A DNA stretch of 37,975 bases, taken from Nitrospinota bacterium (GTDB taxonomy: Bacteria; Nitrospinota; Nitrospinia; Nitrospinales; JACRGP01). A program made the translations under genes and the position numbers. The notes below the pieces were generated by a model. That model was not told where the DNA came from and did not search any database. It worked only from the letters and a program-made list of their open reading frames with translations. The stretch is taken from positions 1 to 37,975 of the forward strand of contig JACQQK010000041.1 in assembly GCA_016207065.1 (NCBI GenBank), in the 5' to 3' direction. Shown in pieces: positions 3,609 through 7,468 of the stretch; the stretch's first letter is position 1; each line of letters begins with the position of its first letter.

Positions 3609-4292
3609 ATGACCCCGTCCATTTTGATAGTCGATGACGACAAAGATTTGCTGGAGCTTTTGAAATTAAAGCTTGGCAAGGAGGATTTCAAGGTCCACGT
3701 CGCGTATGACGGCAAATCGGGGATCGATGCGGTCAAAAACAAGGCCCCCGACCTCGTGATCCTCGACGTCAATATGCCCAGGATGAACGGTCTCGACGTC
3801 TGCAAAATCCTGCGGTCCGAGCCCAAGACCAAAAACCTGCCGATCATCATGTTGACCGCCAAGAACGAGGAAATCGACCGGGTTTTGGGACTCGAGTTCG
3901 GCGCCGACGATTACATCAGCAAGCCTTTCAGCGTCCGGGAACTGGTCCTTCGCATTAAAAACATTTTAAAACGGTCCCGCCCGCCCGAGGAAAAACCGGC
4001 GAGCCTCCACTATGGCATCCTCACCGTAGACATGGACAACCACGAGGTCAAAGTCAAAAACAAGCTCGTTTCGCTTACCCTCACCGAGTTCAAACTGCTG
4101 GCCATGTTGCTCGAAAGACCCGGACAGGTGAAGTCCCGGGACTTTCTGCTGGAGGAAATCTGGGAGTACGGCGACGGCGTCTATTCCAGGACCGTGGACA
4201 CCCATGTCCAAAGGCTCCGGTCCAAATTGAAGGAAGCGGGGAAATACATCGAAACCGTGCGCGGAATCGGCTATCGACTCCAGGAAAACTGA
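3609..4292 (+). CDS. OmpR/PhoB-family response regulator
   Basis: Receiver ILIVDDDKDLL...LVILDVNMPRMNG...IIMLTAK...GADDYISKPF, then winged helix SRTVDTHVQRLRSKL...IETVRGIGYRL. Confidence 0.95.
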   Translation: MTPSILIVDDDKDLLELLKLKLGKEDFKVHVAYDGKSGIDAVKNKAPDLVILDVNMPRMNGLDVCKILRSEPKTKNLPIIMLTAKNEEIDRVLGLEFGADDYISKPFSVRELVLRIKNILKRSRPPEEKPASLHYGILTVDMDNHEVKVKNKLVSLTLTEFKLLAMLLERPGQVKSRDFLLEEIWEYGDGVYSRTVDTHVQRLRSKLKEAGKYIETVRGIGYRLQEN

Positions 4293-4615: not shown

Positions 4616-5050
4616 ATGACCAGAGAAACCATAATGGAAGATGTGACGGAGAGTTCTGTCGGCAAGCGTTTAAAGGCATGGAGGAAATCGGCATATATGA
4701 CCTTGGCCGACGTTTCAAGGATGATCGCGGTCTCGCAAAGTTCGCTTTCCGAAATGGAGAACGAAAAATCGTTGCCTTCCGCGAAGACGTTGCAAGGCCT
4801 GTGTTCGACAACCGACCTGAATATCTGCTGGCTGTTGACGGGACAGGGCCCCATGAGGAAAAGTTCCGCGGAATCCCGCGAGGCGGCCGATTCGCCGGAA
4901 GAGTTGTCGAATATCTCGCAGGACCCGAAACTTAAGGATTTGGCCCGGATCCTGGTCAGGATTTACCGGCTGGGAGGACCCGAAAAAAGGGCCCACATCT
5001 CGGGGTTCCTTCATGGCGCGGACATAGACCGGAGGGTTGAGGAACCCTAA
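4616..5050 (+). CDS. XRE-family HTH transcriptional regulator
   Basis: VGKRLKAWRKSAYMTLADVSRMIAVSQSSLSEMENEKSLPSAKTLQGLCSTTDLNICWLLTGQG. Confidence 0.9.
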   Translation: MTRETIMEDVTESSVGKRLKAWRKSAYMTLADVSRMIAVSQSSLSEMENEKSLPSAKTLQGLCSTTDLNICWLLTGQGPMRKSSAESREAADSPEELSNISQDPKLKDLARILVRIYRLGGPEKRAHISGFLHGADIDRRVEEP

Positions 5051-5100
5051 TGTGACAAAACCGTGACCGTTTCTTGATTTGGGCGTGACAGTAATAGCCT
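5051..5100 (+). promoter_or_regulatory. Putative regulated promoter upstream of kinase-like gene, second copy of repeat block
   Basis: TGTGAC (5051) and CGTGAC (5062) are 11 bp apart; then CGTTTCTTG and TAGCCT with the same geometry as 4466-4515. The ORF-track start at 5079 lies inside this block, so the true start is probably downstream. Confidence 0.5.
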
Positions 5101-6314
5101 ACTTTGGGGCGGGATGTATTTTGATGTGTCGATTGAGGGGTTCATATGCGCAACGTGGGTTACCCCCCGAACCGGATATTCTCTTTCAGACGATCCTGGA
5201 CGCCGCCAGCGACGCGATCGTCTCCATGGACGAAAGCCAGCGGATCGTCATTTTCAATAAAGAAGCCGAATCCGTCTTTGGATACAAAGCGGATGAAGTG
5301 ATGGGAAAACCATTGGACGTCCTACTTCCCGAAAAGTTCAGGGCCGGTCACGGCGGCCAAGTCCGGAAATTCGCCTTGGAGAGCGTCACCCGCCGGCGCC
5401 TGAACGAAAGGATGGAGGTATTGGGAAGAAGAAAGAACGGCGAGGATTTTCCCGCGGAAATCGCGATATCCAAGTTTTCGCGGGACGGGAAATTCATTTT
5501 CACCGCGGTCCTCCGCGATATAACCGGGCGCAAAAAGGCGGAGACCGACTTGAAGAGATACGCGGAGGAATTGAAAAAGAGCAACCAGGAACTTGGCGAT
5601 TTCGCCTTCGTCGCCTCGCGCGACCTTCAGGAGCCCATGCGCAAGATCATCGCCTTTGCCGACCGCTTGACACATTACAACGGCGCCGGCATGGACGAGC
5701 GCGGACGGGATTATCTGAGGAGGCTCCAGAATGCCGCGTCCCGTATGCGGGAACGTCTGGACAATCTATTCGAATATTCGCTGGTCGCCTCGGGCTCCCG
5801 CGGGTTCCAGAGCGTGGACTTGAACCGGTCCATCTCCGAGGCTTTGGTCGAAATGGACACCGGCGCCGGCGAGCCTGGCGGTTTGATGGAGATCAGGAAG
5901 CTTCCCCAGGTCGAGGGCGACGAATTCCATATGCGTCAATTATTCAAAAACGTACTCTCCAACGCCGTCAAGTTTCGCGGGAAGGAGCGGCCTTTTAAAG
6001 TGGTCGTCAGCGCCAGAATGGGCGAAGAAGGATTTTGGCAGATTTTCGTCGAGGACAATGGATTGGGGTTCGAGCAAAAGCATTCGAAACTCATCTTCAA
6101 GCCGTTTGAACGCTTGCACGGGAACGAGTTTCCCGGGGACGGGATGGGATTGACGATCTGCGACAAGATCGTCTCGCGATTGGGCGGCGCTATTGCGGCG
6201 AAAAGCGCGCCCAATCAAGGGACGACCATCATTATCTCCCTTCCTGAAAAACAAAGGGCCGACAGCAATCGTCCGGCGGCGCCGACGCCGGACAATCTTT
6301 CCAAATCGCCATAA
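5079..6314 (+). CDS. PAS-domain sensor histidine kinase-like protein lacking the DHp phospho-acceptor His (annotated start probably too early)
   Basis: PAS: ILDAASDAIVSMDESQRIVIFNKEAESVFGY...AVLRDITGRK. DHp: LGDFAFVASRDLQEPMRKII (canonical xxSHDLQEPLR). Intact-looking ATPase: NVLSNAVKFRG, DNGLGF, GDGMGLTICDKIVSRLGG. Confidence 0.9.
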   Translation: MGVTVIAYFGAGCILMCRLRGSYAQRGLPPEPDILFQTILDAASDAIVSMDESQRIVIFNKEAESVFGYKADEVMGKPLDVLLPEKFRAGHGGQVRKFALESVTRRRLNERMEVLGRRKNGEDFPAEIAISKFSRDGKFIFTAVLRDITGRKKAETDLKRYAEELKKSNQELGDFAFVASRDLQEPMRKIIAFADRLTHYNGAGMDERGRDYLRRLQNAASRMRERLDNLFEYSLVASGSRGFQSVDLNRSISEALVEMDTGAGEPGGLMEIRKLPQVEGDEFHMRQLFKNVLSNAVKFRGKERPFKVVVSARMGEEGFWQIFVEDNGLGFEQKHSKLIFKPFERLHGNEFPGDGMGLTICDKIVSRLGGAIAAKSAPNQGTTIIISLPEKQRADSNRPAAPTPDNLSKSP

Positions 6315-6326
6315 TGAGCCGATAAA

Positions 6327-6656
6327 ATGAGCGCCGGTCCGAATGGGCACAAAGTCAAGGTGTGGGTGGAGTCGGAAATAAAAAGCCTGGTCCCCCGCTA
6401 TATTCAAAACCGGAAGAACGATATGAGAGAGATGATCGAGTTGGCGAAAAAGAGAGATTTCGACGCCATTCAGTTTCTCGCCGATATCATGATCGGATCG
6501 GGGACGATTTTCGGGTTCGATTTCATCAGCGCCGTCGGTCAGTCGATTCAAAAAGCCGCCGCGGATAAAAACTCCCAAACCATTATCGAGATGTCACGGG
6601 CGCTGATCCGGTATCTGGACCGGATCGAGGTAGTATACGTTTCGCCCGTCGCGTGA
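6327..6656 (+). CDS. HPt-like domain protein lacking the phospho-acceptor His
   Basis: 109 aa; YIQNRKNDMREMIELAKKRDFDAIQFLADIMIGSGTIFGFDFISAVGQSIQKAAADKNSQTIIEMSRALIRYLDRIEVVYV fits an HPt helical bundle (canonical LAHxxKGSGxxFGF). Confidence 0.75.
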   Translation: MSAGPNGHKVKVWVESEIKSLVPRYIQNRKNDMREMIELAKKRDFDAIQFLADIMIGSGTIFGFDFISAVGQSIQKAAADKNSQTIIEMSRALIRYLDRIEVVYVSPVA

Positions 6657-6664
6657 CGCCATTA

Positions 6665-7468
6665 TCAGGTTCCGACAAACTCTTTTTGTATCCAGCCTTT
6701 TTTGTCCTCGCTCAACTCGATTCGATACCAGCCGTCCTTTTCTCCGGCGATGGCTAACGGAACCCCCTCGTGGAGTTGGAAGAGGGTGACGCTGCCGCCG
6801 GCGGGGGAGGATTTTACGTCCGCCGTTTTCGCGAAGACCACGCCCAAACCCGGTCCGGACTCGACGGAAAATTTGCCCGCCGTCGAAATTACCGCGAGAC
6901 AAAGACCGATCAGAAAAGTTTTGCGGGCAACGTCCCAAAACGCATGTCTGAAGAACAGGCGCCCCGCCATGGCCAGCCAGAATAGAAAGTTCGAGACGAT
7001 CAGAATCTGGACGGTCTCGGCCCGGTTGAAATCGTCCAGCCAGAATAAAACCGTTTTCATGAAACCCTGAGGTTTTTCCTCCAACCGGTCGTTGGTTTCC
7101 TGGATGGCGGTCTTGAGGTTGGCTTCCAGGTCCTTGTCTCTCGGGATCAAGGACTTCGCTTTCAAGTAGCTGAGAATGGCCGGACCGATTTCCCCCAGAC
7201 GGAAATAGGCGTTCCCCAGGTTGTAGTACAAGTGGCCGTTTTCATGTCCCTTCGCCTCCAGGTCCGAATATATCCGAGCGGCCTCCGAGTAGCGTTTCTC
7301 TTGATAATAGGCGTTGGCCTTCGCGATCTGGCCTAGTGCGCCGCCTTCCTCCGCCCAGCAGATAGAAAACGGAAACAGCAGGTCCAGGACCGCGAGGAGA
7401 CAGAGAACGGCGCCCGCGACTCCAGCCAGGGCGGACTTACCCGCCGCCTTTCGGTCCGTTATCTTCAT
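6665..7468 (-). CDS. batE: BatE-like protein: TPR repeats plus C-terminal SH3-like domain
   Basis: Signal peptide, TPR (AKANAYYQEKRYSEAARIYSDLEAKGHENGHLYYNLGNAYFRLGEIGPAI), TM segments, C-terminal SH3-like GWYRIELSEDKKGWIQKEFV; adjacent to batD. Confidence 0.75.
   Translation of the reverse strand: MKITDRKAAGKSALAGVAGAVLCLLAVLDLLFPFSICWAEEGGALGQIAKANAYYQEKRYSEAARIYSDLEAKGHENGHLYYNLGNAYFRLGEIGPAILSYLKAKSLIPRDKDLEANLKTAIQETNDRLEEKPQGFMKTVLFWLDDFNRAETVQILIVSNFLFWLAMAGRLFFRHAFWDVARKTFLIGLCLAVISTAGKFSVESGPGLGVVFAKTADVKSSPAGGSVTLFQLHEGVPLAIAGEKDGWYRIELSEDKKGWIQKEFVGT

Follow-up and report, generated by a model that had tools for sequence, protein, structure and literature searches.

An arginine-bearing histidine kinase-like protein and a neighbouring HPt protein with aspartate at its acceptor position in a Nitrospinota genome

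In the stretch of Nitrospinota DNA analysed here (37,975 nucleotides, contig JACQQK010000041.1; hereafter the window), a histidine kinase-like protein carries arginine where the phospho-acceptor histidine is expected, with its ATP-binding boxes intact, and the gene that follows it encodes an HPt protein whose acceptor histidine is replaced as well. Since both acceptor residues are lost, the pair would not pass phosphate on; going by their sequences, the two proteins probably work by binding partners or by removing phosphate. The original prediction had noticed the kinase-like protein and overlooked the HPt gene beside it.

The pseudo-histidine kinase is encoded on the forward strand (5079-6314) by a frame of 411 amino acids counted from TTG 5079, although ATG 5124 is more probably the start. 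It is a soluble protein of PAS-HisKA-HATPase_c architecture (aa 36-149, 173-234 and 280-391, respectively), with no evident transmembrane segment. Pfam recognises the PAS (E 2.7e-13) and HATPase_c (E 2.9e-22) domains, while HisKA (PF00512) scores 21.1 bits, below the cut-off of 26.9. Around the acceptor the protein reads FAFVASRDLQEPMRKI, and the window codons GCC TCG CGC GAC CTT CAG GAG CCC translate as ASRDLQEP, the CGC of Arg181 lying at 5619-5621. Measured against the HisKA plus HATPase class (PF00512 + PF02518), the protein departs at the acceptor and conforms in the nucleotide-binding boxes (5949-6152), which alignment with homologues places at NVLSNAVKF (N, aa 291, 5949), DNGLGF (G1, aa 326, 6054), FERLHG (F, aa 343, 6105) and GDGMGL (G2, aa 353, 6135), with their catalytic residues retained. 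Both the arginine and the intact ATP boxes had been predicted, and both were confirmed. Asp182 at H+1 is kept, as is Glu185 at H+4 (5631-5633), a position linked to phosphatase activity in HisKA domains. In the predicted structure the DHp helix runs unbroken through Arg181, and sensor kinases are the nearest solved folds, among them the complex of HK853 with its regulator.

The arginine form is rare. Among 100 related genomes, the sole close orthologue is found in a second species of the same genus, G001 (G001:C38, locus L009); it is about 91% identical to the window kinase over aa 104-410, with DNA about 95% identical overall, and it uses the same CGC codon. The comparison thus covers two species, both known from draft assemblies, the window genome (G000) being 79.6% complete and G001 about 71%. 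The original prediction had proposed aligning the DHp regions of homologues; in this alignment, histidine occupies the acceptor column in all 35 other homologues, which are 32-47% identical and come from the same genome, the order and beyond. With a degenerate DNA pattern, the motif was found with histidine about 201 times in 46 of the 64 genomes of the order (a total summed from the table) and with arginine twice, and no arginine form appeared beyond the window genome and G001 in the 64 genomes of the order or in 77 of the phylum. Three further pattern matches were set aside, two being short frames (one with R) and the third an AAA-type ATPase, with no kinase among them. Searching the genome contigs with peptide patterns of the full kinase-like protein returned distant relatives only and no orthologue. 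In the kinase tree the deep forks are weak, and the closest histidine-bearing relative of the arginine kinase is not placed.

Two simple explanations for the arginine can be weighed against these data. CAC and CGC are one transition apart and the draft assembly is fragmented, so that a sequencing or assembly error could be imagined; yet the independent assembly of G001, at about 95% nucleotide identity, encodes the same arginine, which excludes a one-off base error, and we give this explanation practically no weight. It is also very improbable that the protein is an ordinary kinase phosphorylated on another residue. The DHp hairpin loop (LTHYNG) does contain a histidine, and another stands at aa 284, but neither lies on the DHp helix reached by the ATP domain, the residue at aa 284 is glutamine in 32 of the 35 relatives, and it is arginine that occupies the histidine column of the unbroken helix. 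Neither the alignment of 35 relatives nor the structure model revealed a candidate acceptor histidine on that helix.

Selection could be compared between the window species and G001. Over 299 shared codons, the kinase genes differ by 20 synonymous and 25 non-synonymous changes (Nei-Gojobori), giving a dN/dS of 0.34; equal rates are rejected by Fisher's test for all 299 codons together (p about 7e-4) and for the HATPase domain (dN/dS 0.22, p about 0.015), but not for the coil plus DHp (0.46, p 0.18). For the same species pair, the neighbouring genes give 0.19 (the response regulator), 0.25 (XRE), 0.22 (BatE) and 0.58 (part of BatD). Although the stem branch of the arginine kinase amounts to 0.91 changes per site (column), only three of the 24 columns invariant in the histidine-bearing relatives are changed in it (His181, Leu231 and Leu292); the DHp positions 187, 227 and 229, near-invariant in relatives, are altered too. 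As this branch may partly predate the loss of the histidine, only the two-species comparison strictly bears on the arginine form. The arginine is genuine and shared by the one same-genus orthologue, the ATP boxes are preserved and the two species show purifying selection, which makes the pseudokinase reading sound. As in a DivL-like pseudo-histidine kinase, a catalytic residue has been lost and the loss is conserved, arginine being present in both species of the genus. To a putative signalling role retained without catalysis, the purifying selection gives indirect support only.

The HPt gene (6327-6656, forward strand) starts 12 bp past the kinase stop and encodes a stand-alone protein of 109 aa. 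Its acceptor histidine is replaced by Asp53 (codon 6483-6485) and its active-site lysine by Ile56, so that the GHTMKGSGG of relatives reads ADIMIGSGT. Its Pfam Hpt (PF01627) score of 14.3 bits is below the cut-off of 24.6, and its membership of the HPt fold is indicated by other evidence: the profile of its family matches YPD1, the ArcB HPt and CheA P1, the predicted structure is a helix bundle (pLDDT 88.5), and Foldseek ranks HptB and the ArcB HPt first or third with high probability, although no match has an E below 0.001. It is therefore a homologue of the four-helix-bundle HPt domains that lacks the phosphorylatable histidine of HxxKG. In another genus of the same family, G003 carries at the syntenic locus an HPt (G003:C12) with ADNLNGSGS, 40% identical to that of the window. 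The two group as sisters in the tree (95/95), and in G003 no kinase gene lies between the XRE and HPt genes. Histidine is retained in the 28 other HPts that were aligned and in three more of the family; no other HPt of the family departs from it. The occurrence of aspartate in two genera indicates that the aspartate form is older than both, while the arginine kinase was found only in the genus of the window. Histidine-bearing HPt relatives (L141, L142, L143) adjoin genes of alpha-glucan or trehalose metabolism, together with cytochrome-like ones, in several of the order's genomes.

Both genes are damaged in G001. There, at L009 1456-1530, about 47 bp of filler take the place of a 338-bp stretch of the kinase gene that comprised the start and most of the PAS domain, with loss of aa 1-103 and roughly two thirds of that domain, while the HPt gene misses 270 bp (90 codons) between short repeats. 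What is left of the kinase frame stays open for 300 aa, beginning at a Met in the last part of the PAS domain. Thirty-one bases of the filler recur in the same genome beside its histidine-bearing HPt gene (L141 5336-5366), and this sequence is probably a small dispersed repeat. Judging by the losses in both genes, that species either can do without the module or is in the course of changing it. Alternatively to a functional module, the pair may be a relic: the kinase, once inserted or duplicated, and the HPt, dead from before, would be on their way to loss, with frames that are not yet broken. The main evidence for this is that two separate deletions in G001 fall exactly on the kinase and HPt genes, to which the narrow distribution of the module (one genus of the order) and a coil plus DHp ratio not significantly different from 1 can be added. 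However, the frames are intact in the window genome, even the shortened G001 kinase gene stays in frame, the overall and HATPase ratios are low, the ATP boxes are kept in both species, and neither the frame nor the fold of the aspartate HPt has been lost between genera, at 40% identity; on balance, we consider a relic less likely than an action on the regulator, but a serious rival to it. The claim of the original prediction that the kinase is not simply decaying holds in part: the ATP boxes and purifying selection speak for it, while the PAS loss and the 270-bp deletion in G001, together with several changes at near-invariant DHp positions, speak against it. A foreign origin of the two genes was rejected, as their GC and GC3 are the same as those of the neighbours.

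The locus itself is collinear across the order: an MFS transporter, a hydrolase, a PhoB-type regulator and an XRE gene are followed by a variable slot and then by batE-batD-batC on the other strand. In the window, the PhoB/OmpR-type response regulator (3609-4292, forward strand), conserved across the order, has an intact receiver (Asp9, Asp53, Thr83, Lys105), and its conserved neighbour is the XRE-type helix-turn-helix regulator (4616-5050, forward strand). The fixed downstream border of the slot is a BatE-like gene, named by resemblance (6665-7468, reverse strand). The slot holds the arginine kinase and the aspartate HPt in the window and the aspartate HPt in G003; it is nearly empty in five relatives (G002, G006, G013, G015 and G025), holds other genes in three (G016, G024 and G007), and in G022 is occupied by genes for an intact receiver protein and an oxidoreductase-like product. 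The receiver-domain protein of G022, from another family of the order, follows the XRE gene at L132 5523-6083 (G022:C1). Parts of two-component systems seem to gather in this slot. No kinase was found in the slot of the other relatives that were read, a feature of the locus regulator that the earlier prediction had missed.

The PAS domain of the kinase (5184-5525, forward strand, Pfam) has its closest solved matches by sequence mainly among the haem-PAS domains of FixL and DosP (E 3.5e-16 downwards). His91 (5349-5351) aligns with the haem ligand of FixL and DosP, and Arg111 (5409-5411) with the distal arginine of FixL. As histidine is common at the His91 position to only 7 of the 14 aligned PAS rows, we treat a haem-PAS as a lead rather than a result; the G001 orthologue is without His91. 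This PAS domain, with its FixL/DosP-like haem-site residues, adjoins batE-batD-batC, which we take by name to be aerotolerance genes.

It is tempting to propose, and we do so tentatively, that the arginine kinase acts on the neighbouring PhoB-type regulator by docking or dephosphorylation, with the HPt as a second, competing receiver-binder. This proposal starts from the loss of both acceptors, the intact ATP boxes, the arginine in a second species, the aspartate in a second genus and the synteny of the regulator; from these we infer which protein is targeted, whether its output rises or falls, and the involvement of a phosphatase activity. The two genes that follow the regulator/XRE pair would form a phosphotransfer-dead module. 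With arginine in place of histidine, self-phosphorylation of the DHp would be impossible, but the protein should still fold into a DHp dimer with an ATP-binding domain and present its receiver-docking surface. It may then bind the PhoB-type regulator, under the control of PAS and ATP, and lower its output, either through dephosphorylation, as the retained ATP domain and H+4 Glu would allow, or through sequestration. The aspartate HPt, unable to carry phosphate, would bind receivers in competition with true HPts or kinases. The features that a phosphatase or ATP-gated docking protein would require are still there: an unbroken DHp helix, Asp at H+1, Glu at H+4 and a complete ATP domain. The histidine is not strictly needed for HisKA phosphatase activity (PMC12632262), and in DrBphP the Glu at H+4 is required for ATP-dependent phosphatase activity (PMC8292422).

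Several observations weigh against an action on the regulator. G001 has lost most of the kinase PAS and 90 HPt codons, a single genus is known to have the kinase-HPt pair, the changes at DHp positions 187, 227, 229 and 231 could alter docking, and the bulky arginine might block the phospho-receiver. As for the phosphatase step, DivL, the best-studied pseudokinase, has no such activity (PMC4211667). The protein could alternatively act in trans, forming a heterodimer with, or allosterically tuning, one of about 13 related histidine kinases of the same genome. The genome does encode 13 further kinases with the histidine motif, at 36-47% identity; the intact ATP domain could phosphorylate a partner's histidine in trans, and precedents exist in DivL with CckA (PMC4211667) and in the ChrS pseudokinase with HrrS (PMC9491836). 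Yet no specific partner can be named, and the gene adjoins a response regulator and not another kinase, which makes this route rather doubtful to us. Because of the locus, we favour an action on the neighbouring regulator over both the trans-acting and the relic explanations. A bolder version, which we regard as fairly improbable, is that a wholly phosphotransfer-dead module has been added to a kinase-less regulator and controls it by PAS/ATP-gated binding, in which nucleotide binding, and not phosphate flow, would be the signal.

Domains that have lost the acceptor histidine are rare, 0.9% of HisKA and likewise 0.9% of Hpt domains (PMC12632262); a pseudokinase and a pseudo-HPt, each alone, thus belong to a known kind. 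In the open-licence literature we found no described case of a dead kinase beside a separate, dead bacterial HPt. In the window, two such proteins lie in one probable operon beside an intact regulator that lacks a kinase at this locus in relatives. This makes a small, closed case of three proteins for asking what dead two-component proteins do, with G001, having lost parts of both genes, as a natural comparison.

Known systems resemble parts of this arrangement. RcsD of E. coli also has a kinase-like transmitter without the histidine linked to an HPt (PMC3842833, PMC5651002), but its HPt is active (His842) and in the same chain, whereas the window HPt is separate and lacks its histidine. AHP6 and other plant pseudo-HPts share the HPt fold without the acceptor histidine, but belong to the plant cytokinin pathway. 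A ChrS pseudokinase variant of Corynebacterium glutamicum shows that a dead kinase can affect signalling through heterodimers with another kinase (PMC9491836), although this variant was evolved in the laboratory and its defect lies in the ATP domain, not at the histidine. The Deinococcus bacteriophytochrome DrBphP, which is also a profile match, shares the HisKA QEP motif and the Glu at H+4 and is an ATP-dependent phosphatase without kinase activity (PMC8292422); in contrast to the arginine kinase, which has kept Asp182, lost the histidine and carries a PAS domain, it has kept the acceptor histidine, lost the acidic H+1 residue and uses a phytochrome sensor. Finally, Caulobacter DivL (acceptor position Tyr550) is likewise a PAS-DHp-HATPase protein with its acceptor histidine replaced, and its structure (4q20) is matched by the profile. 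DivL slows the decay of a phosphorylated receiver, which it binds but does not act on (PMC4211667). However, DivL has tyrosine and weak ATP binding, senses DivK~P and controls CckA (PMC4211667), while the window protein has arginine, ATP boxes intact by sequence, an adjacent regulator and a dead HPt, and many active kinases match it better than DivL does.
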